From the NCBI GenBank assembly GCA_005887855.1, contig VBQB01000075.1, forward strand, positions 1 through 8,479: a DNA stretch of 8,479 nucleotides, read 5' to 3'. This document shows positions 1 to 8,418 of the stretch, one piece after another (position 1 is the stretch's first letter; each line of letters starts with the position of its first letter). A program made the position numbers and the translations under genes. The DNA comes from Verrucomicrobiota bacterium (GTDB lineage Bacteria > Verrucomicrobiota > Verrucomicrobiae > Chthoniobacterales > UBA10450). The notes under the pieces are model-generated. The model did no database searches and was not told the DNA's origin. It saw nothing but the letters and a program-made list of their open reading frames with translations.

Positions 1-215
1 TGAGCGCCATCTGGGGCGAGCCGGTCGATTGCATCCATACGGCAGGGCAATCGCGGTCGCGAATGGGCCTTCATTTGACCCGCAACGATCCCGATCTGGC
101 TCCAGCGCGCGCAATCGCTAGGGTAGCGCATGCGTCTCGCATGTTGGCTGCGGCGTCGGCGCCGCAGCGGTCTTTCCTAAAGCGGCGGGCGTATCGCCTG
201 CATTTCCAAAACTAG
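1..215 (+). other. Unassigned upstream segment: open frame entering from the left, running into repeat-like DNA
   Basis: Frame 3 is open from the window edge to a TAG at 213-215, about 70 codons. The translation matches no family I recognise. It could be the 3' end of a gene that begins outside the window. From about 121 onward the sequence looks like non-coding dispersed repeat (GTAGCGCATGCG... to ...GGCGTATCGCCTGC), so the frame may simply have drifted into it. A reverse-strand frame is also open over the first 120 bases, so strand is not secure. I see no start codon with a ribosome binding site and no conserved motif. Confidence 0.25.
147..168. repeat. GC-rich hairpin in repeat-like DNA
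   Basis: GCTGCGGC (147-154) pairs with GCCGCAGC (161-168). An additional G155-C160 pair leaves a TCGG loop. No T-run follows directly (the next bases are GGTCTTTCC), so it is a poor intrinsic terminator. It lies within sequence resembling short interspersed repeats. It could still mark the boundary between the upstream unit and the sel locus. Confidence 0.4.
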
Positions 216-242
216 CAGCCGGCTCGGCTACCTCTGCATCTC

Positions 243-271
243 TTGACCGCATTTAATCGCACCGATAGCTT
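243..271 (+). promoter_or_regulatory. Candidate sigma70-type promoter for the SelW-like gene
   Basis: TTGACC (243-248) is a good -35 match and is followed after 17 bp by TAGCTT (266-271), a weak -10. The site is 23 bp upstream of the GTG start at 294. The weak -10 keeps confidence low. Confidence 0.3.
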
Positions 272-280
272 CATTCTCGG

Positions 281-287
281 AAAGGAG
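281..287 (+). promoter_or_regulatory. Ribosome binding site that decides the SelW-like start
   Basis: AAAGGAG at 281-287 is a strong Shine-Dalgarno sequence. It is 6 nt before GTG 294 and only 3 nt before GTG 291. It supports initiation at 294 and shows that translation begins upstream of the in-frame TGA rather than after it. Confidence 0.7.
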
Positions 288-293
288 CTCGTG

Positions 294-530
294 GTGAAAA
301 CCGAGGTGTCGATCGAATACTGCGTCGTTTGAAACTACACGCCGAAGGCCGTCAGTTTGGCGACCCAAATTCTTGAACTCGGCGAGCGCGTTAAGTCGCT
401 CACGCTCATTCCCTCGAGCGGCGGCGCTTTCGAGGTTCGCGCCAATGGCAAACTCCTCCACTCTAAACTCGACTCCGGCGACTGGCCGGACTTCGACCAA
501 ATCTTCAGCGCGATCAAAAAGATCAAGTAA
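294..530 (+). CDS. SelW/Rdx-family thioredoxin-like selenoprotein (CxxU)
   Basis: This is a probable redox selenoprotein of the SelT/SelW/SelH (Rdx) family, a small thioredoxin-like fold. Translated from GTG 294 it gives 78 residues, with TGA at 330-332 read as Sec13. The N-terminus has beta strand KTEVSIEY followed by C10-V-V-U13, the family's CxxC/CxxU position, then NYTPKAVSLA. The C-terminal half carries the other family hallmarks: a SGGAFEVRANG strand-turn with GKLLHSK, then G-D-W-P-D and a terminal helix with FSAIKKIK. Length matches bacterial Rdx proteins (about 70-100 aa). The frame has no other stop, and similarity continues on both sides of the TGA, which argues for recoding rather than termination. 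It lies 92 bp upstream of selC, so its decoder tRNA is encoded next door. The substrate of bacterial members is unknown. GTG 291 is an alternative start. Seen: frame, motif, RBS. Inferred: Sec insertion. Confidence 0.85.
340..362 (+). promoter_or_regulatory. Candidate bacterial SECIS hairpin of the SelW-like gene
   Basis: CGCCGAA (340-346) can pair with TTTGGCG (356-362), including one G-T pair. The 9-base loop GGCCGTCAG starts with G. Only 14 nt separate the TGA (330-332) from the loop, slightly below the 16-37 nt I recall for bacterial SECIS elements. An alternative fold, GCCG 348-351 with TGGC 358-361, places the loop 19 nt from the TGA but has a weaker stem. The element is plausible but not clear-cut. 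Confidence 0.4.
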
Positions 531-542
531 TCATCAATCCTT

Positions 543-597
543 CTGTAGGGGAAGCTGTCAGCTTCCCGTGACGGGAAGGCAACGCCTTCCCCTACAG
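543..597. repeat. Palindromic interspersed element (REP/MITE-like)
   Basis: A perfect 12-bp inverted repeat, CTGTAGGGGAAG (543-554) and CTTCCCCTACAG (586-597), bounds this 55-bp unit. Inside are two smaller hairpins: GGGAAGCT/AGCTTCCC (549-567) and GGAAGGC/GCCTTCC (574-590). The unit can thus form either one long stem or two adjacent stem-loops. It has no coding capacity and no T-run, and it sits between the SelW-like gene and selC. The form is typical of short non-autonomous dispersed repeats; copy number cannot be judged from one window. Confidence 0.8.
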
Positions 598-622
598 CTG
601 CTCCATTACTCCAACATCATCC

Positions 623-719
623 GGAGAGTGAAGGGTGCCTGGTGGCCTTCGCGGTCTTCAAAACCGTTGTCGATCCCGCAGACGCTGGGTCGAGGTAGGT
701 TCGATTCCTATCCTCTCCG
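623..719 (+). tRNA. selC: tRNA-Sec (selC), anticodon TCA
   Basis: The 97-nt gene has the hallmarks of bacterial tRNA-Sec. The anticodon stem GCGGT/ACCGT (651-655/663-667) encloses loop CTTCAAA with TCA at 658-660. The long variable arm is TCGA (670-673) with TCGA (690-693), extended by CCC/GGG. The T arm is GTAGG/CCTAT (695-699/707-711) around TTCGATT. A compact D arm (about 633-650) has a TGGT loop; its stem contains G-T pairs and one T636-C647 mismatch. The acceptor GGAGAG (623-628) pairs with CTCTCC (713-718). G719 is the discriminator and CCA is not encoded. T629 opposite C712 is unpaired, and one A between 712 and 713 would complete an 8-bp stem. SerRS charges this tRNA, SelA converts it and SelB carries it. 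Confidence 0.93.
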
Positions 720-725
720 CTGTTT

Positions 726-759
726 CATTTTCGATTTTCGATTTCCGATTTTCGATTGG
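726..759. repeat. CGATTTT 7-bp tandem repeat
   Basis: Four to five imperfect copies of a 7-bp unit run from 726: CATTTT, CGATTTT, CGATTTC, CGATTTT, CGATTGG. The AT-rich unit begins 7 bp after the end of selC. It contrasts with the GC-rich surroundings. Similar arrays are common between genes in Verrucomicrobiota and Planctomycetota, which I recall but cannot verify here. Confidence 0.75.
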
Positions 760-775
760 TCGCAAAGATGCGCCG

Positions 776-809
776 CTGAAATCCAGATTTCAGCTTGCCG
801 CCATGGCGG
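776..809. promoter_or_regulatory. Two dyad-symmetric motifs upstream of selD
   Basis: CTGAAAT (776-782) pairs with ATTTCAG (787-793) around CCAG. The 12-bp palindrome CCGCCATGGCGG (798-809) follows. Both lie in the selC-selD gap. They could be an operator or an mRNA structure affecting selD expression, but nothing identifies a binding protein. Confidence 0.3.
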
Positions 810-831
810 ACATCTAGCACTCAGCATCGAG

Positions 832-840
832 AAAGGGGGT
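832..840 (+). promoter_or_regulatory. selD ribosome binding site
   Basis: AAAGGGGGT lies 7 nt before ATG 848. It fixes the selD start upstream of the TGA at 899-901 and thereby supports the Sec reading of that codon. Confidence 0.65.
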
Positions 841-847
841 GAATCCG

Positions 848-1820
848 ATGTCGCGTGAGCAAATTCGTAAACTGACTTCGCTCTCATCGTGCGCTGGGTG
901 AGCTTCCAAGTTGAGCCAACAGGCCCTGCGGCAAGTTTTGCCGCAGCTTCCCATTTCGTCGGACCGGAAAGTGCTTGTGAACTCGAACACTTTCGATGAC
1001 GCCGGCGTTTATCGTTTGGATCGGCATCGTGCTCTCGTGCAAACCGTTGATTTTTTCACACCTATAGTTGACGACCCATTTTCCTACGGGCAAATCGCCG
1101 CGGCCAATTCGCTTTCCGACATCTTTGCGATGGGCGGACGCCCGTTGACCGCGCTCAACATCGTTGGTTTTCCGGCTGATCTCGTTCGACCAAGAGTGAT
1201 TTCCGCGATTTTGCGCGGCGGCCTGGCTAAGGCGGCCGAGGTCGGCTGCGCGCTCGTCGGCGGCCATTCCATTCGTAATCCGGAACCGATTTACGGTCTG
1301 GCCGTCACCGGAATTGTCGATGTTCGCCACGTCACGACGAATGCTAACGCGCGCCCCGGTGATCTGCTCGTTTTAACGAAACCGCTCGGCACTGGGATTG
1401 CCACCACCGCGATCAAACGCGGATTAGCTTCGCGCGCGCTCGAGAAAAGAGTGATCGCGCTCATGTCGAAGATAAATACAGTGCCGCGCCAGTGACGTGT
1501 CGGCGGATATCGATCCAAACGCGGTGCCGATGATTAGCGATGAGATTAGCGATCTAATCGAATTGGGCTCCGTCCCCGAAGGGAGCCGACAAAATCTTTA
1601 TGCAACGACCGTCGTCGTAGATTGGGGAAGGACCGATCAAATGCACAGAATTCTCCTAACTGATGCTCAGACCAGCGGCGGATTACTACTTTGTGTCGCC
1701 GAAGCCAAGCTCGAGAAGATGCTGAAATTCTTGCGGCAGGCGCGCACGCCCTGCGCTGCCGTAATTGGAAGAATCGTCCCGTCTCGACGACGACGCCCGT
1801 TGATATGCATGACCAGGTAA
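848..1820 (+). pseudogene. selD: selD, selenide water dikinase: Sec-containing, with internal deletion and frameshift
   Basis: SelD makes selenophosphate from selenide and ATP. From ATG 848 the frame reads into TGA 899-901 as U18 within C15-A-G-U18-A-S-K21, matching E. coli Cys17/Lys20. FDDAGVY (D51), SDIFAMGG (D91) and GGHSI follow at positions that align with E. coli without gaps. After LMSKINTV (M206-V212) the frame stops at 1493-1495. Homology resumes in another frame at about 1482 (CRASDV, SADIDPNAVP) and continues through TDAQTSGGLL and PCAAVIGRIVP to TAA 1818-1820. Compared with E. coli, 28 codons plus 2 nt (about 86 bp) are absent, including the DVTGFGLLGH segment with the Mg-binding Asp227. 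As written, the product would be truncated at 215 residues and inactive. The 3' end overlaps selA by 16 nt. This could be true decay or a sequence error; a second selD elsewhere is possible. Confidence 0.88.
902..946 (+). promoter_or_regulatory. SECIS-like hairpin for selD Sec18
   Basis: Downstream of TGA 899-901, CTGCGGCAA (926-934) pairs perfectly with TTGCCGCAG (938-946) around loop GTT. The stem is 9 bp, the loop starts with G, and 33 nt lie between TGA and loop. These values fit the bacterial SECIS consensus I recall (loop 3-14 nt, G in the first two positions, 16-37 nt spacing). This is the element SelB domain IV would bind to recode the TGA. Confidence 0.7.
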
Positions 1821-3229
1821 AAGCTCGCTCACGCCGGGAGATTCCAGCGGTAAACAAGGTTCTTGATGCGCTCGGCCATTACGATCTGCCGCGACCGTTA
1901 GTTGTCGATCTTGTCCGCCGCGAACTTTCGCGGCTTCGCGTGAAGACGGAGATCCCCGAATTTCGGTCGATTGTCGATCTTGTCCGCCGCTCGCTTGCGG
2001 AGCTTCGCGCCAGCCGGCTCCGGCCGGTCATCAACGGAACCGGCATCGTTATTCACACGAACCTTGGACGCGCGCCGCTTCCGGCCGAAGCGATTCGCGC
2101 GCTCTGTAAGACTGGTTCGACCTATTCGAATCTCGAATATGATCTCGAAACCAGCGAGCGCGGTGGACGCGGCAATTACATCGAGAAGGCGCTCGCATTA
2201 CTTTGCGAAGCGGAATCGGCCACCGTTGTCAATAATTGCGCGGCCGCGTTGGTGCTAATCGTTCGGCATTTTACCAGGAACAAACCAGAAATTGTGATCT
2301 CGCGCGGCGAACTGATCCAAATCGGCGGCGGTTTTCGCATCGGCGAAATTATCGAGGCGGCCGGGGCGAAACTGCGCGAGGTCGGCGCGACAAATAAGAC
2401 CACGCTCAATGATTACGCGAAAGCAATTGGACCAAACACCGCGCTCATTCTCAAAGTTCATCGCAGCAATTTTTTCATGAGCGGTTTTGTGGAATCGCCT
2501 TCTTCAGCTGCGATCGCTGCATTGGCGCGGAAAAAACGTGTTCCTTTCGTCGAGGACTTGGGCAGTGGCGCGATTGTTGCGACGGAGCAATTAGGAATAG
2601 CCGAACACGAGCCGACGCCTGCTGAAGCATTGAAAGATGGAGCCGATCTCGTTTGTTTCAGTGGCGATAAATTGTTCGGCGGCCCGCAAGCGGGAATCAT
2701 CGCTGGAAAAAAGCGATTCATTGCCGCGTTAAAGCGCGAACCGTTATTTCGCGCGTTGCGCTGCGACAAACTGATTTTCGCGGCCCTGCAAGCGACTGTC
2801 GATCTTCACCTCAATCAATCGACCTCGGAAATTCCTGCGATTGCGCTCTTGCAAGTCTCCGAGGATGAACTGCGCGCTCGGGCCGCGGCGATTGCCAGCC
2901 GGCTGGAGGACTCGCCACTGCGAATCGCGATTGGCCGCGGTGCCGTCAAAGTCGGCGGCGGGACCTTGCCAAAATCGACAATGTCTTCGGTTACTATCGA
3001 CATTGTTCCCGGGAACTGCTCGCTAGTCGATTTCGCTCCGCGTCTTCGCGCCTCAAATCCACCGGTCATCGGCTATATCGCGAACGCGCGTTTCAAACTC
3101 GATCTGCGCACAATTTTCCCGCAACAAGATGACGCCGTGGTCGACGCGATTCGCACCGCCTGTACAAAACAGCATCAAGCACCACGAAGATCGCGAAGAT
3201 GGAATTTGATGAGCTGTCCCGAAGTGTGA
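1805..3229 (+). CDS. selA: SelA, L-seryl-tRNA(Sec) selenium transferase
   Basis: SelA is a PLP-dependent, homodecameric enzyme in the cytoplasm that converts Ser-tRNA(Sec) to Sec-tRNA(Sec) with selenophosphate. ATG 1805 gives 474 aa (E. coli 463). The N-terminal domain shows REIPAVNKVLD and LPRPLVVDLVRREL. The catalytic domain begins at R73PVINGTG and HTNLGRAPL. It continues through LEYDLETSERGGRG, VNNCAAALVL, SRGELIQIGGGFRI and KVHRSNF. The PLP lysine is K289 in SGDKLFGGPQAG. VIGYIANARFKLDLR closes the fold. No Shine-Dalgarno sequence is visible; the 16-nt overlap with selD suggests translational coupling. The frame is also open upstream to 1691, but that part reads as selD in another frame. 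The last 16 residues (459-474) are encoded by the left end of the GxxExxY cassette, so the native stop has been replaced. The core looks complete and functional. Confidence 0.95.
   Translation: MHDQVKARSRREIPAVNKVLDALGHYDLPRPLVVDLVRRELSRLRVKTEIPEFRSIVDLVRRSLAELRASRLRPVINGTGIVIHTNLGRAPLPAEAIRALCKTGSTYSNLEYDLETSERGGRGNYIEKALALLCEAESATVVNNCAAALVLIVRHFTRNKPEIVISRGELIQIGGGFRIGEIIEAAGAKLREVGATNKTTLNDYAKAIGPNTALILKVHRSNFFMSGFVESPSSAAIAALARKKRVPFVEDLGSGAIVATEQLGIAEHEPTPAEALKDGADLVCFSGDKLFGGPQAGIIAGKKRFIAALKREPLFRALRCDKLIFAALQATVDLHLNQSTSEIPAIALLQVSEDELRARAAAIASRLEDSPLRIAIGRGAVKVGGGTLPKSTMSSVTIDIVPGNCSLVDFAPRLRASNPPVIGYIANARFKLDLRTIFPQQDDAVVDAIRTACTKQHQAPRRSRRWNLMSCPEV
1902..1990 (+). repeat. 20-bp direct repeat inside selA
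   Basis: TTGTCGATCTTGTCCGCCGC occurs at 1902-1921 and again at 1971-1990, exactly 69 bp (23 codons) apart. Both copies are in frame and encode V-D-L-V-R-R. The following bases are also similar (VDLVRRELSRLR versus VDLVRRSLAELR). The first copy matches the usual SelA N-terminus, so the second may have arisen by local conversion or duplication. Confidence 0.8.
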
Positions 3230-3564
3230 TCGGGCGCGCGATCGAAGTTCACCGCAATCTCGGGCCGGGATTGCGAACTCTCGCATGCCGGTATTCCATT
3301 CAGATGGAGATGCCGCTGCCCGTTCATTACAGGGACATTCTGCTCGATTGCTATCGGATCGATTTGCTCGTCGGTGACGATCTCATCGTTGAAATCAAAA
3401 GTATCGAAACACTTCTCCCAATCCATCACGCGCAAATTCTTACGTACATGCGCCTGGCGAAACTTCCACTTGGACTGCTTATCAATTTTAATGTCCCGAA
3501 ACTGCAAAACGGCATCAAGCGTTTCGTTCTGTAATTCTTCGTGCTCTTCGTGTCCTTCGTGGTG
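3180..3564 (+). mobile_element. Mobile-looking GxxExxY cassette with terminal inverted repeats
   Basis: The left end CACCACGAAG (3180-3189) is the exact reverse complement of CTTCGTGGTG (3555-3564), with looser similarity extending about 10 bp further inward (GCGAAGA against TCTTCGTGT). The 385-bp unit holds one gene and separates selA from selB. The left end is translated as the SelA tail. The selB Shine-Dalgarno sequence and start lie just outside the right end. TCAA occurs immediately outside both ends (3175-3178 and 3565-3568, one base offset on the left), a weak hint of target duplication. No transposase is present, so movement would need help in trans or the encoded nuclease. That it is mobile is an inference from structure and position. 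Confidence 0.55.
3199..3534 (+). CDS. GxxExxY-family PD-(D/E)XK nuclease-like protein, degenerate
   Basis: This 111-aa protein belongs to the GxxExxY family of small putative PD-(D/E)XK nucleases of unknown role. The N-terminal helix SRSVIGRAIEVHRNLGPGL is typical, as are the core YRIDLLVGDDLIVEIK (D55, E65, K67 as metal/catalytic residues) and the end LLINFNVPKLQNGIKRFVL. The family's naming motif (GLLESAY-like, directly after LGPG) is absent. Between L25 and Q35 stands RTLACRYSI, whereas shifting one base reads ELSHAGIPF, the expected sequence. So about 32 bp were lost and a second 1-bp loss restored the frame, 11 codons short. A Gly is also missing in LDC(G)YRIDLL. ATG 3199 lies inside the left inverted repeat, overlapping selA by 31 nt. 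The protein is probably non-functional. Confidence 0.75.
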   Translation: MEFDELSRSVIGRAIEVHRNLGPGLRTLACRYSIQMEMPLPVHYRDILLDCYRIDLLVGDDLIVEIKSIETLLPIHHAQILTYMRLAKLPLGLLINFNVPKLQNGIKRFVL

Positions 3565-3576
3565 TCAAAAGGAGAC

Positions 3577-5517
3577 ATGACTGAAAAGCATTTCATTCTC
3601 GCGACGGCCGGCCACGTTGATCACGGCAAGAGCGCCCTTGTCAAAGCGCTTACCGGAATTGATCCCGATCGCCTGCCCGAAGAAAAAGCCCGACAAATCA
3701 CGATCGAGCTCGGCTTCACGCAATTGACTCTCAACGGGCCTAACGAGCAGCGGTTTCATATTGGAATTGTCGATGTACCCGGCCACGAAGATTTCGTCCG
3801 GAACATGATCGCTGGTGTGGGGTCAATCGATCTCGCCCTCTTCGTTGTTGCAGCGGACGATGGCTGGATGCCGCAAACCGAGGAACATTTACAAATCCTG
3901 ACCTACCTCGGAGTGCAACGAGCTGTCATTGCGCTTACGAAAAGTGACTTGGGCGACGCCAGCCGCATCACCGCACAAGTTCGCGAGCGCCTGCATGATA
4001 CCGCCTTCGCGCGATCTCCGATTATTCCAACTTCAGTGCGCACTGGCGAGGGAATCGAGACTTTGAAGAGCGCCCTCGCCTCGGAGTTGTCGACCATGCA
4101 ACCACAACGCGATGTCGGAAAACCGCGCCTGTTTATCGACCGCACCTTCATACTGCGCGGAATCGGCACGGTCGTGACCGGCACGCTCACTGGCGGGCGT
4201 CTCCATCGCGGCGAGAGCGTGGTTATTCAGCCGCAAAATTTCGACGCGCGCATCCGCTCGATCCAGAGTCATGGTTGCGAGGTGGATTACGCGCAGCCGG
4301 GAATGCGCACGGCCATCAACCTACCGGATGTCGGGATCGGCGACGGTCCCGGCCAGATCAAGCGCGGCGACGTGATCACTGTTGCCGATCCTTCGGCTTC
4401 GCTCAGGACAAGTCTTGGCAGCAGAGCGAATTCGACTCTGGTTGTTCTTCTCGAAAAATCGCATCGGCTTAAACCAAAAGATCCCGCCGCTCGTCCGCTT
4501 AAGAATGGCACTTCGGTCAATTTGCATCACGGCACGTCGCGATTCCGGGCGAAGATTTATCTGCTTGATAGTGATGCGCTCGACCCTGGCAAACAAATGA
4601 TCGCGCAACTAAAACCGGAATCACCGATCTTTGCATTTCTCGGCGATCGCTTTGTCCTTCGCGATGCATCGGAGCAATACACAATCGGGGGCGGAGTGGT
4701 TCTTGATCCAGATGGCGACCGCAAAGAATTTCGTGACGAGGAGAAACGCAAATTACTGATGGCTCGCGCTATCGCCCCGGATGATATCGATCTTTGTGTT
4801 CGCTCCGAAATTGGACTGCGCGGATTTGTGCCGATACAAACGGTTCTTGGCAAATCTCACTTCAGCCGCGTCGAGATCGCTGGCGCCCTATTGCGCCTGC
4901 AACATCTTAAGGAAATTGTCGTCCATGGCAAAATCGCGGCGAACACCGGGAGCTGGCAGGCATTACGAAACCGCGCCACTCTCCTGATCGACAATGCGCT
5001 CAGTAAGAATCCCGAACGCATTGGTTTCGACTTGAGTCAGCTGCGCGCCGCGCTGCGCGATCAAGCCGGACATATCTTCGAGGCACTCATTGAGGACATG
5101 TGCTCGGATGATTTTGTTCGCAGAGAATCAATGATCTCACGCCGTTCGCACCAGCCAGCGTTGCCCGATACACTGCGACCTGCCGCAGCGAAAATTCGCG
5201 AAACGCTGTCGAAGAAGCCATTCGACCCGCCCGCGCGCAGAGAGATCGAATCAGACCCACATACGCAGCGAGTGCTCAGATTCTTGATCGAAAGTGGAGA
5301 AGTCATCGAAATCGCCTCGAATGTGGTGTTATCACGCGAGAATTTCGAACGGATGAAAAACACTGTCGCCGATTTCATTTCCAAAAACGGACCAGCGACT
5401 GTGAGCGAGCTGCGGCAGGCGCTCGAGAGCTCGCGCCGGACTATGGTGCCATTTCTCGAGGCGCTGGATCGACAAGGCGTGACGCGCCGCATCGGCGACA
5501 AGCGCGTGCTCGCGTAG
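3577..5517 (+). CDS. selB: SelB, selenocysteine-specific elongation factor
   Basis: SelB is a GTPase that carries Sec-tRNA(Sec) to the ribosome at UGA codons by binding the SECIS hairpin. ATG 3577 gives 646 aa (E. coli 614). Domain I shows G1 at G12HVDHGKS19, [16 protein letters not shown]3 D66VPGH70 and G4 T121KSD124. Domain II begins around [22 protein letters not shown] and domain III around [20 protein letters not shown] to [15 protein letters not shown]. The remaining 240 or so residues are the winged-helix SECIS-binding region, ending [11 protein letters not shown]. The ATG was chosen because the family starts a few residues before [13 protein letters not shown] codons at 3541-3562 in the same frame lie in the cassette end. 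AAAAGGAG (3567-3574) is a good SD sequence but only 2 nt from the ATG. A repeat-derived insertion lies between domains II and III (see 4390-4412). No catalytic residue is missing. Confidence 0.95.
4390..4412 (+). repeat. Interspersed repeat inserted in frame in selB
   Basis: CCTTCGGCTTCGCTCAGGAC followed by AAG is a familiar interspersed bacterial repeat core; its complement reads as the VLSEAEG and PERSRR signatures in other frames. Here it encodes PSASLRTS at about residues 272-279, in the linker between SelB domains II and III. Compared with E. coli this linker is about 9-10 residues longer. The frame is kept. Confidence 0.65.
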
Positions 5518-5542: not shown

Positions 5543-7705
5543 ATGGAGCGATCGCGACCAGTCCTGCTCGTTGTGCCGTCACTACGGGAAGCGTGGGAAG
5601 ATGCGATTGCTCCTTGGTTCGAACGAGTTTTGCCCGAGACGTGGAAACGCACCTTGCCTTCGCTGGTCGTCGTCCCAACGCGAGGGCAGGCCAACGATCT
5701 GAAGGCGCGCTTGATTGCAAAAGGCTATTCACATCTCGGTCTGCAGTTTGTCACACCGGCGAGTTTGTGGGCATTGCTCGCGCGAGATGATGCGACGCCA
5801 CATGCGCAGCCGGAACATCTGCGCTTGCTCCTCGCAATTGCTGCGAGTGAAATGGAAGATCGGCCTAACGAATCAGAATCACTCGCCGCCAAAGCCGTTG
5901 CCCGTGCGCCGGCGTTGCTGTTGCGGGCATTGGATCGTCTGGAAACTGCCGGATGGAAATTCAAAGAACTCGCGCTGCCGGCGTTTACACCAGTCGTTCA
6001 ACGTTTCAACGAGCTCTTGAAAAAATGCGATTTTGTTCTGTTGGGCGAAGGCAATCGACGGCGTTTGCGACAAGCGGCGCGTGGCGAGCGAAAATTTTCT
6101 CACGTGCTCATTACCGGGTTCGATGGAGCACATTGGCGACAGTGGTTTCTCCTGCGCAACGCGGTCGAGCTTGCGGAAAACGCTACGATCGTGGTCGAAG
6201 AACCGGGTGGCGACTTTTCCGACATCGACCTTTGTTGGATCGGGTCGTGGGAAGAAGTCTGCGGCGAAGCGCAACGCGCGCCAAAATCGGCACACGCGCC
6301 TAGCGATTCGTTTTTTAGCGAAACGGAAATGCGCGGTGGCGCGGCACCTGCAAAGAGTTTCGATTTTCTCATTGGCACAAACATCTCGGAACAAGCCGAA
6401 GCGATCGCGCGGAAATGCGTTCGTTATTTGTCGGAGGAAAAATGCAAGCGGCTCGGCGTGATTTTTTCCCGCAACGGTGCGTTGCCACGGCTGGTCTCAA
6501 ACTCGCTAGCGCAACTCGACATCCCGCACAACGACGGGCTCGCGCACATCGTTCCCGGCATCTTCGAATCAGCGGAATGGCAAGCATGGATCGAATTGCA
6601 ACGCGCGCCGAGACTCAATTCTTTCCTGCGCTTTTTAGACGCGTTCTCCGATCCCGCGGTTTTATCGCCGTCTCTCAGCCGGTCCACCTTCGAAAACATT
6701 CTGCGCGAAAGTTATAGCGAAGTGTTGCTGGATGATCTCGAAATTCTGCGCGAATTCTGCGCCGCACGCACCGATAAGAAATTTCAATCGGCCGCCGAGG
6801 CGTTGCGCGCGTTGCCGTTTCTTCCCCCGCGCGCCACGCTGGCGCAGTTTCTCGAACAAACGCACGCCGCGCTCGCGTATCTCGATTGGAAGCAACACGC
6901 GCTCGAAATTGCCAGCGTCACGCGCGATTGGCCGCAACATCTCGATGCGGAATTCCCGCGCACCCTCTTTCTGCGCTGGCTTGAAGAAACTGCTGCGACC
7001 TTTGGCGCGGCGCGTTCAGCCGAGGGCGATCATCCGTACGCGCGCGTGCAGTTGCTCACCGTGGCGCAGGCGCAAAATCAGGAATGGTCTCACCTGATTT
7101 TTGCCGGCTGGAACGAAGGCGCGTGGCCGCCGCCGGCCGGCGCGGAGTTCGCCCGCGCCGAAGAAATTCGCGCCTTCAATCGCAGCGTGCAGCAGCTCAA
7201 TAAACGCGCCGCGCGCCAGGGAAGTCAGGGCGAAGGCCACACCAGCGTGCGCGAAAATCATTCGCTCTATCTCGGCCCCAGCGAGCAACGCGCGATCGCG
7301 TTGCGACAATTCGATGCGCTGCTCGAATCGGCCAGCGAAGGCGTAACGCTCGCGGCCAGTCTGGTGCAGGAAGACGCGCCGGAACGTTGGTGGAACCCAA
7401 GCGAATGCTTCAGTCAGCTCTATCTCACGAAGAGGCGCGAACCGCTTACGCAAGCGAGGTTGAAATATTTGCAACGCGCGACTGCGCGATTCATCAATGA
7501 TCCGCGCCTGTTCACTTACGAATCCGAGCCGCCACACGCGGATGTACAGCAAACTGTGATCGCATTCAACGCGCGCCGCGATGCTTCGAAACCTGCAAGC
7601 GAATACGATTTCGCGTTGCGGACTAATCAGTCGTATCGGCCAATGCCTACGCTGAGTGTCAGCAAAAGAAAGCTGGAAAAATATTCGCGGCGTTTCCTTC
7701 ATTGA
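5543..7705 (+). CDS. AddB-like inactivated helicase subunit, upstream part of a split helicase/nuclease
   Basis: A 720-aa protein resembling AddB or PD-(D/E)XK-family exonuclease subunits, which process DNA ends with an AddA/UvrD-type partner. It has no Walker A motif. Recognisable parts are LVVVPTRGQANDLKARL (about residues 40-56, motif Ia-like), FSHVLITGFDGAHWRQW (about 186-202), FLIGTNISEQAEAIARK and, near residues 501-530, VQLLTVAQAQNQEW with HLIFAGWNEGAWPP, the usual helicase motif V/VI region. It ends with PTLSVSKRKLEKY, the sequence that normally leads into the nuclease domain, then stops seven codons later at TGA 7703-7705. The nuclease motifs lie in the next frame. Start ATG 5543 is 25 nt after selB with only a weak SD. 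Function is inferred from motifs and the downstream helicase. Confidence 0.75.
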   Translation: MERSRPVLLVVPSLREAWEDAIAPWFERVLPETWKRTLPSLVVVPTRGQANDLKARLIAKGYSHLGLQFVTPASLWALLARDDATPHAQPEHLRLLLAIAASEMEDRPNESESLAAKAVARAPALLLRALDRLETAGWKFKELALPAFTPVVQRFNELLKKCDFVLLGEGNRRRLRQAARGERKFSHVLITGFDGAHWRQWFLLRNAVELAENATIVVEEPGGDFSDIDLCWIGSWEEVCGEAQRAPKSAHAPSDSFFSETEMRGGAAPAKSFDFLIGTNISEQAEAIARKCVRYLSEEKCKRLGVIFSRNGALPRLVSNSLAQLDIPHNDGLAHIVPGIFESAEWQAWIELQRAPRLNSFLRFLDAFSDPAVLSPSLSRSTFENILRESYSEVLLDDLEILREFCAARTDKKFQSAAEALRALPFLPPRATLAQFLEQTHAALAYLDWKQHALEIASVTRDWPQHLDAEFPRTLFLRWLEETAATFGAARSAEGDHPYARVQLLTVAQAQNQEWSHLIFAGWNEGAWPPPAGAEFARAEEIRAFNRSVQQLNKRAARQGSQGEGHTSVRENHSLYLGPSEQRAIALRQFDALLESASEGVTLAASLVQEDAPERWWNPSECFSQLYLTKRREPLTQARLKYLQRATARFINDPRLFTYESEPPHADVQQTVIAFNARRDASKPASEYDFALRTNQSYRPMPTLSVSKRKLEKYSRRFLH

Positions 7706-8418
7706 CAATAATCGATGAGCGTGTCCGTGTTTCTGCCGACGAACGCCGCGCGGCGCTTCAGCAACTTTGCAACTCGTTAGGGCGAGTTGTGCCCGACTGG
7801 TGGAATTCGGGCTGGCTGAACGCGCGTTTTCTCGCGCGGCATCTCGGCGGAAAAATCGCGAGCGCGAACGGCTGGACCAGGATGGCAGCGGAGTTGCCCA
7901 TTGGTCACGACGGCGCGGTGAAAATAGCCGACGGAGTGGAACTTCAACTGCGCGGCCAGATCGATTTGGTGCTCGCGCAAAACGACTCAGCCGATTTCGC
8001 CGGGCAAAAGATTTGGATCGTCGATTACAAAACCGGTTCGACCAAGGAACTGAAATCTTCCGATTTGCACGACAGTCTTGTTAAAGGGACAGCATTGCAG
8101 CTCGGACTCTATTCGCTGGCGATGCGTGAGCTTGGCGCAGCGGAAGTGAGCGTGAGCATTCTTTCGCTGGCGGTGAAAAATGTCGGGCCACAGTTGTCCG
8201 TTGTCGATCTGGCGCCCCACACAAACGTCTTCGCCGATCTCGCGGAAATGCAACGCACCGGCGTTTTCGGAATGAAAGGCGAGATTCGTCCCGCGTTTGG
8301 TTACAGCGCACCATATCCGCTCGCGACATTGCAAATCGATAACGACATTTTGGAGGATAAATGGGGGCTAACCCATCCCGCGCTCGTACTCGAAAAAGAG
8401 GAGTGGGAAACATGGTGA
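7702..8418 (+). CDS. PD-(D/E)XK nuclease module (RecB/AddB C-terminal type)
   Basis: A 238-aa reading frame starting with TTG 7702 that overlaps the previous stop by 4 nt (TTGA). It contains the nuclease core: LRGQID (D88), IVDYKTG (D108, K110) and QLGLY (Q133, Y137). The C-terminus AEMQRTGVFGMKGEIRP and PALVLEKEEWETW looks complete. WWNSGW and ARFLARHLGG match the segment preceding the core in such proteins. What is absent is the N-terminal nuclease helix with the conserved GxxxH-type His that should follow the end of the 5543-7705 product. The two frames were therefore most likely one gene of about 1,000 codons that lost some tens of codons at the joint. Separate translation by overlap coupling is possible but would still lack the motif. 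Confidence 0.72.
   Translation: MTIIDERVRVSADERRAALQQLCNSLGRVVPDWWNSGWLNARFLARHLGGKIASANGWTRMAAELPIGHDGAVKIADGVELQLRGQIDLVLAQNDSADFAGQKIWIVDYKTGSTKELKSSDLHDSLVKGTALQLGLYSLAMRELGAAEVSVSILSLAVKNVGPQLSVVDLAPHTNVFADLAEMQRTGVFGMKGEIRPAFGYSAPYPLATLQIDNDILEDKWGLTHPALVLEKEEWETW

Follow-up and report, generated by a model that had tools for sequence, protein, structure and literature searches.

A conserved +1 reading frame joins a putative SelW-like selenoprotein gene to selD through the tRNA-Sec gene in Verrucomicrobiota

The stretch of DNA analysed here, called the window throughout, comprises 8,479 nucleotides from a Verrucomicrobiota bacterium (contig VBQB01000075.1, assembly GCA_005887855.1). Its + strand carries a selenocysteine (Sec) gene cluster in the order rdx-selC-selD-selA-selB with rdx at the head, and all four of selA, selB, selC and selD lie within the window, selD being interrupted as sequenced. 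The features are the following.

281..287, + strand: Shine-Dalgarno motif AAAGGAG of rdx, read from the sequence
294..530, + strand: rdx (selW-like), putative selenoprotein gene of 78 residues, GTG start 294-296, TAA stop 528-530
321-323, + strand: codon TGC of Cys10 of rdx, read from the sequence
330..332, + strand: in-frame TGA, kept among related loci and probably read as Sec13 (CVVU)
347..365, + strand: predicted bSECIS hairpin of rdx, GGCCGUCA-GUU-UGGCGACC, from covariation in 35 distinct sequences and low synonymous change in codons 14-23
445..858, + strand: bridge ORF, shifted by +1 relative to rdx, 137 residues, from ATG 445-447 within rdx codons 51-52 across the spacer and the whole of selC to the stop TGA 856-858, which overlaps the beginning of selD
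543..597, + strand: palindromic element of the rdx-selC spacer (CTGTAGGGG...CCCCTACAG), read from the sequence, with no stop in the bridge frame
623..720, + strand: selC, tRNA-Sec with anticodon TCA, by ARAGORN and Rfam (tRNA-Sec 61.2 bits, cut-off 47)
848..1820, + strand: selD, ATG 848, Sec TGA at 899-901 (CAGU), frames 848-1495 and 1497-1820
926..946, + strand: predicted bSECIS hairpin of selD, CUGCGGCAA-GUU-UUGCCGCAG, from covariation in 37 distinct sequences
1805..3229, + strand: selA (TIGR00474, 491 bits)
3199-3534, + strand: GxxExxY (PDDEXK_3) gene between selA and selB
3577..5517, + strand: selB (TIGR00475, 307 bits)
5543-7705, + strand: long frame without a family match in the profile search
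7702-8418, + strand: PDDEXK_1 frame, from the profile search

A sequence-only reading of this DNA had placed AAAGGAG, the GTG at 294, the TGA at 330-332 and a frame from 294 to 530 exactly where we find them. It had also set rdx immediately upstream of selC, and the two genes do adjoin, selC beginning 92 nt past the rdx stop; that description has to be corrected in that a second reading frame, the bridge ORF, also joins rdx to selC. The motif AAAGGAG stands directly 5′ of the rdx start in the 37 loci L001-L037 as well, L038 having GAGGAGG, and a nearly identical palindromic element occupies the rdx-selC spacers of L010 and L036. An Rfam match to isrG reached only 15.5 bits against a cut-off of 100 and was taken as chance. 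Relative to L036, selD of the window has an 86-nt gap near 1480 (1480-1500), which results in a frameshift and hence in two frames, and is either a lesion or an error of contig assembly. The GxxExxY gene also lies between selA and selB in L004 and L020, with a partial match in L008 and L121, and was not reported there in the other loci examined for cluster content; it looks like an insertion. Within selB, CCTTCGGCTTCGCTCAGGACAAG occurs in frame at 4390-4412, a putative dispersed repeat element.

With TGA translated as U, rdx encodes VKTEVSIEYCVVUNYTPKAVSLATQILELGERVKSLTLIPSSGGAFEVRANGKLLHSKLDSGDWPDFDQIFSAIKKIK. Its proposed membership of the Rdx/SelW family was borne out by profile HMMs, with 67.2 bits for PF10262 (cut-off 22.6, E 1.5e-18) and 56.4 bits for TIGR02174 (cut-off 34.2); it stays below the equivalog cut-off of SelTWH_Campy NF041051 (72.6 versus 88 bits). 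Solved relatives by sequence include 2fa8 (E 9.3e-8), which is also the best PDB match of the AlphaFold model in Foldseek (TM 0.90), mouse SelW 2npb following with TM 0.72. This model, built with 19 sequences, has a mean pLDDT of 95.4, a strand at residues 3-10 and a helix at 16-27, and the predicted structure fits a thioredoxin-like fold with the CxxU motif after the first strand. We infer from sequence and model that Rdx is a small thioredoxin-fold thiol/selenol oxidoreductase that would use Cys10 and Sec13. SelW-like selenoproteins are an already known bacterial family, and the kind of protein is not new. According to the available parts of the respective papers, full-length translation of Campylobacter jejuni SelW is backed by Ribo-seq and proteomics (PMC11955535), and SelW-like proteins rank among the most abundant prokaryotic selenoprotein families in the GOS data (PMC2398784). 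Our Rdx shares with C. jejuni SelW and the marine SelW-like proteins the Rdx family, the CxxU motif, a length of about 80 residues and the fact that annotation missed it. In contrast to these proteins, the present clade is characterized by CVVU-NYTPKAV in Verrucomicrobiota records and scores below the NF041051 cut-off, and its rdx is usually followed directly by selC (44 of 49 distinct loci).

Peptide patterns that exclude residue 13, run against 84,980 species genomes, yielded 38 rdx loci, each of which carries TGA at codon 13. In a wider collection, 113 Rdx hits were reduced to 67 distinct proteins, and the residues after the motif separate these completely: all 47 with NY or DY have TGA at the Sec position and all 20 with RW, HW or KW have Cys. 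The homologs align across the TGA, as had been claimed for a full Rdx frame, with Cys at the matching position in the CxxC relatives. Selection was analyzed at the codon level with 41 ungapped main-clade sequences out of 49 distinct rdx DNA sequences; since the 49 were picked for U in the motif, they are uninformative on how often the TGA is kept. For codons 2-12, pS was 0.467 and pN 0.048 (pN/pS 0.10), and hence the stretch 5′ of the TGA evolves as protein. The protein databases seem to show conservation only 3′ of position 332, a pattern that the sequence-only reading had named as speaking against itself, but this impression is contradicted by the DNA of codons 2-12 (pS 0.47, pN 0.05). It is also true that standard annotation mostly misses the full gene: 113 among the 120 listed of 448 database matches are 57-aa products that begin past the TGA and lack its region. 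Against the Sec reading stand the database proteins P0002 and P0003, with Cys and Leu at position 13.

The 57-aa database proteins are what could be said for TGA 330 being a true stop, with the gene beginning at TTG 357 as in the databases, or for rdx being a pseudogene. The protein-level selection on codons 2-12, the Shine-Dalgarno motif upstream of the GTG, the SECIS-like hairpin 3′ of the TGA, the position of the first strand and the active site before residue 14 of the model, and the association of TGA-type Rdx with SelA described below all argue against this, and we consider it scarcely credible. The reading of 294-530 as a gene for an Rdx/SelW selenoprotein is supported, and UGA 13 is probably read as Sec. 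In 6 of the 48 loci with a visible rdx end (L016, L024, L036, L037, L118 and L123) the next in-frame stop is again TGA, so that, provided rdx ends at this codon, UGA would have both meanings, Sec and stop, within a single gene.

Synonymous change in rdx is not evenly spread: pS in the 41 sequences is 0.401 for codons 24-50 and 0.452 for codons 51-76, compared to 0.114 for codons 14-23. At codons 19-23, all of which are 4- or 6-fold degenerate, the 41 sequences contain a single synonymous change; these codons fall in the stem GGCCGUCA-GUU-UGGC(G/A)CC, the loop of which lies 22 nt past the TGA and which contains one C-A mismatch in the window. Across 35 distinct 48-nt sequences, 93.9% of the cells pair, and 11 cells changed on both sides (shuffle mean 4.5, 0 of 500 shuffles as high). 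The doubly changed cells are mostly third positions of codons 18 and 24 (G-C 19, A-U 9, G-U 4); the pair formed by columns 20-34 is lost in 9 of the 35 sequences, of which the window is one. Counted by pairs instead of cells, two changed on both sides, a number reached by 36 of 500 shuffles, and the window's own fold is not unusually stable, a fraction of 0.06-0.08 of 2000 codon-resampled sequences being as stable. A first candidate, CGCCGAA/UUUGGCG, taken from the MFE fold of 42 nt of the window, was discarded on visual inspection, as its pairing is disrupted by third-position changes in the alignment. The predicted hairpin 3′ of UGA 13 fits a bacterial SECIS element.

The selD gene of the window is a second Sec gene, with TGA 899-901 in the motif CAGU. 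Among 46 loci with a recognised SelD motif, a count that leaves out 6 of 51 loci without one, 43 have TGA and three have Cys (L125, L147 and L149). The predicted selD hairpin shares with that of rdx in the window a GUU loop closed by A-U. In 37 distinct sequences, 20 of its cells are doubly changed, a number that none of 500 shuffles reached (their mean being 6.6), and the changes are kept even where the encoded protein is altered (ALRQVLPQ, ALTQVLRQ); one pair is broken in 18 of the 37 sequences, and the number of pairs changed on both sides is two, as many as 445 of 500 shuffles reached. In the three loci with a Cys SelD, the A-GUU-U hairpin is missing from the MFE fold and the TGA of rdx is still present. 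A formate-dehydrogenase-like stretch with one in-frame TGA was found in 24 of 31 genomes searched, in all of them below the TIGR01591 cut-off. The five such loci that were read (L082-L086) all contain ARIUHSSTVPGLG, with a GGUCU-loop hairpin in the MFE fold of three, and this gene is probably a third client of the Sec machinery. Rdx as the sole client of that machinery was considered and dropped in view of the TGA in 43 of 46 selD genes and in the formate-dehydrogenase-like stretch of 24 of 31 genomes. Linkage of a selenoprotein gene to the Sec machinery is likewise seen where fdhA adjoins selABC in Proteobacteria; the client there is fdhA and here rdx, and the available part of the report on the proteobacterial linkage describes no overlapping frame (PMC1794560).

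We compared the occurrence of rdx at three taxonomic levels. In the family sample, Rdx is present in 49 of 83 genomes, and in the order sample in 21 of 147, each time with one TGA (49/49 and 21/21). SelB exceeds its cut-off in 24 of the 147 order genomes, 18 of which have both proteins; on the opposing side, Rdx occurs without SelB above cut-off in three (G008, G144, G147) and SelB without Rdx in six. In the phylum sample, Rdx is found in 41 of 337 genomes, five with TGA and 36 without a stop; 20 of the latter genes were fetched and all encode CxxC. For 39 of these 41 genomes (G002 and G003 left out), SelA was above cut-off in 3 of 3 with TGA-type Rdx versus 0 of 36 others, six of which have weak matches below the cut-off. 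The L018 contig, labelled Acidobacteria gp4, carries an Rdx protein identical to that of Verrucomicrobia L017 and is probably misbinned.

The frame joining rdx to selC was analyzed in two sets of loci. With ARAGORN, selC was found downstream of rdx in 44 of 49 loci; the remaining five are L019, in which selC is shortened, L124, which ends at the contig end, and L038, L118 and L119, which have no selC nearby. The selC of L019 (833-904) is only 72 nt long, scores 32.6 bits in Rfam, below the cut-off, and is possibly degenerate or misassembled. Counted from the rdx stop, selC begins at a distance of 2 modulo 3 in every one of these 44 loci (in two after a 1-nt ARAGORN offset), and all 44 spacers are free of stops in the +1 frame, compared to 21 and 23 in the other frames. 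In the second set the 5′ end of selC was placed by one motif, which gave 51 loci, with the selC length on 50 and selD distances on 44; L012, in which the motif reads VEYC, is absent from it (gap 35, +1 frame open). In this set, the gap is 2 modulo 3 in 51 of 51 loci over 30 distinct lengths from 14 to 194 nt. Frames 0, +1 and +2 of the spacers contain 31, 0 and 35 stops, and the 51 open +1 spacers compare with 21.2 expected from mononucleotide-shuffled spacers. Runs of TTGGACG-like heptamers vary between the spacers of loci such as L013, L128 and L020, with the reading phase unchanged. Mapped on a SelD tree of 48 loci, the gap must have changed its length at least 36 times; if each change kept the phase with a chance of one in three, our own arithmetic gives about 7e-18.

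The frame likewise continues through selC to the start of selD. The length of selC is a multiple of 3 (90, 93 or 96 nt) in 46 of 50 loci and 92 or 95 nt in four. Over the 50 loci, the three frames of tRNA-Sec hold 0, 57 and 43 stops; since tRNA-Sec thus has one largely stop-free frame, openness inside selC follows from the correct phase. In all 50 loci with a defined selC end, one ORF is open from the position of rdx codon 51 to the selC 3′ end. From there to 18 nt before selD, the bridge frame is open in 42 of 44 loci (16 and 26 for the other frames), and in 41 of 44 its stop falls between -20 and +30 nt relative to the start of selD. The bridge ORF proteins P0160, P0185 and P0224 run in frame into selD up to the Sec codon. 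The bridge stops short of selD by 329-411 nt in L012, L026 and L120 and by 54-86 nt in L027 and L037; the first three have 376-482 nt between selC and selD, with a second selC in L120. That locus, the same as L028, contains two tandem selC copies between rdx and selD, and the protein P0154 likewise spans the 5′ part of the tRNA twice. L117 has its selD in another place, and in this locus the bridge runs to the estimated selA start, as read from the coordinates.

These observations bear on a rival explanation, namely that rdx-U, selC and selDAB form a plain co-transcribed selenoprotein operon in which the +1 frame is an accident of composition, descent and tRNA sequence. All loci are related, the TTGGACG-like repeats of many spacers are stop-free in every frame, and a shuffled spacer is open with a mean chance of 0.42, all of which would make such an accident easier. 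An accident would nevertheless have to preserve a single phase in 51 of 51 loci through the many length changes on the SelD tree, and to spare one spacer frame from the stops found in the other two. Moreover, the selC-selD gap of the same loci is spread over the phases (20/16/8 in 44 loci, p 0.08) with no single one kept, and seven distinct loci from the same and a related group, fetched after the pattern had been noticed, conform in phase and openness in 7 of 7. We therefore regard a fortuitous +1 frame as very improbable. Phase and openness of the bridge frame are conserved.

By synonymous resampling of rdx, the +1 frame should be free of stops from codon 52 onwards in 24.3 loci and have an ATG or GTG at offsets 145-151 in 28.6; each of the two is observed in 51 loci. 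Over codons 17-50, this frame is open in 17 loci, with 8.2 expected. In the seven later loci the start is ATG at offset 151 in four and GTG at 148 in three. The Shine-Dalgarno sequence before the bridge ATG is weak. As controls, CxxC Rdx loci have no ATG or GTG in an open +1 frame at offsets 145-160 (0 of 20), and in six of them (L063, L064, L065, L070, L071 and L072) the +1 frame still runs for at least 700 nt past the stop. Among the TGA loci with no selC nearby, L038 has no bridge-like start and its +1 frame closes 6 nt past the stop; in L118 and L119 this frame stays open for 117 and 141 nt, L119 having an ATG at 145. In L130 and L131, which have selC-selD-selA-selB and no rdx, the bridge frame is open for just 28 and 19 nt upstream of selC, and in L130 a bridge-type frame continues downstream of selC into selD. 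Hence, selC does not need the bridge.

Another possibility we considered is that the product of the bridge ORF is a small basic protein with a function, its sequence being under selection in its own right. Predicted proteins matching it number 630 at E ≤ 0.001, and the block read from tRNA-Sec is nearly invariant in an alignment of 28 sequences (the window and 27 chosen by hand from the 120 matches listed). In the same alignment, however, the peptide is conserved mainly over the rdx overlap or the tRNA and poorly elsewhere. No Pfam domain was found among the 120 listed of the 630 matches, whose source name, where given, is 'hypothetical protein', and AlphaFold gave no structure for the bridge protein (pLDDT 54.4, pTM 0.14). 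The synonymous sites of rdx under the bridge (codons 51-76, pS 0.45) also vary as freely as those of codons 24-50 (0.40), without extra constraint. Since poor peptide conservation is here combined with the lack of a predicted structure and free synonymous sites, openness and phase rather than the peptide appear to be selected. A protein with a role of its own is accordingly an improbable explanation, if less so than the chance frame, and the bridge peptide is probably without function of its own.

What openness and phase might serve can be put as a model. The bridge ORF would be translated and would carry ribosomes across a tRNA region that would go untranslated without it in the shared transcript, thereby protecting this transcript, and would hand them to selD through termination and re-initiation. 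Folding and excision of tRNA-Sec would remove the bridge from that transcript, so that tRNA-Sec and SelD/SelA/SelB would be partly alternative products of one RNA. Translation of the bridge and any regulatory role are here inferred from the pattern of frames. As a joint statement, we think it quite probable that UGA 13 is Sec in Rdx, that a translated bridge couples selD to upstream translation and that tRNA excision is a competing fate of the RNA.

A narrower alternative is that bridge translation acts solely against polarity, keeping Rho off an untranslated stretch so that selDAB are transcribed, with no trade-off against tRNA processing. It requires openness and frame alone, which is just what is conserved. 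No sigma-70-like promoter was found in window 1-900, and in L123, L147 and L149 the spacer is only 14 nt long, so that any selC promoter would sit inside rdx. Sequence cannot tell this alternative from the trade-off, but by itself it leaves the bridge stop at the selD start in 41 of 44 loci unexplained; we see it as a serious possibility on the less likely side. More speculatively, and with slightly less confidence still, the locus may be a selenium-sensing switch built of three overlapping codes: a frame-0 selenoprotein needing Sec-tRNA, a +1 frame through tRNA-Sec, and a tRNA whose excision breaks the SelD/SelA/SelB message. Ribosome traffic at UGA 13, that is readthrough or termination, would then set the use of the +1 start and thus balance tRNA-Sec against the Sec-making enzymes.

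Our preferred reading, with a translated bridge and a competing tRNA excision, has a close precedent. According to the accessible portion of Mukai 2021 (PMC8124441), selB of Alphaproteobacteria is an ORF that contains tRNA-Sec, the length of selC preserves the reading frame, the host ORF often stops at the start codon that follows, and the RNA is proposed to be either processed to tRNA or used for protein expression. As far as that portion goes, both cases have an entire selC within one same-strand ORF and a selC length that is mostly a multiple of 3, an ORF that stops where the following gene begins (here in 41 of 44 loci), and, as a proposal, one RNA used either as tRNA or as mRNA. The host here, by contrast, is a +1-frame ORF from rdx to selD instead of selB, which follows selA; the phylum also differs from the Alphaproteobacteria, Gammaproteobacteria and Nitrospirae that the same portion names. 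The available parts of reviews of 2022 and 2026 name the selB-nested case only. In the open-access literature on nested tRNA, selC and Verrucomicrobia we found no report of an rdx-selC-selD bridge, and the sole match for Udaeobacter with selenocysteine appears, from its accessible part, to concern another subject. A SelW-like selenoprotein and a selB-nested tRNA-Sec being already known, it is the bridge frame beside rdx that looks new.

For the family, the finding means that a selenoprotein present in 49 of 83 genomes and mostly deposited in truncated form gets re-annotated. Beyond this, the locus looks like a further instance, with a host other than selB, of a tRNA-Sec gene held in an open frame that is kept by selection, and the conserved arrangement suggests that one RNA may serve both as message and as source of tRNA-Sec. 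The bridge thereby allows a direct test of whether, in bacteria, a single transcript can be either tRNA source or message as a means of balancing the Sec machinery.
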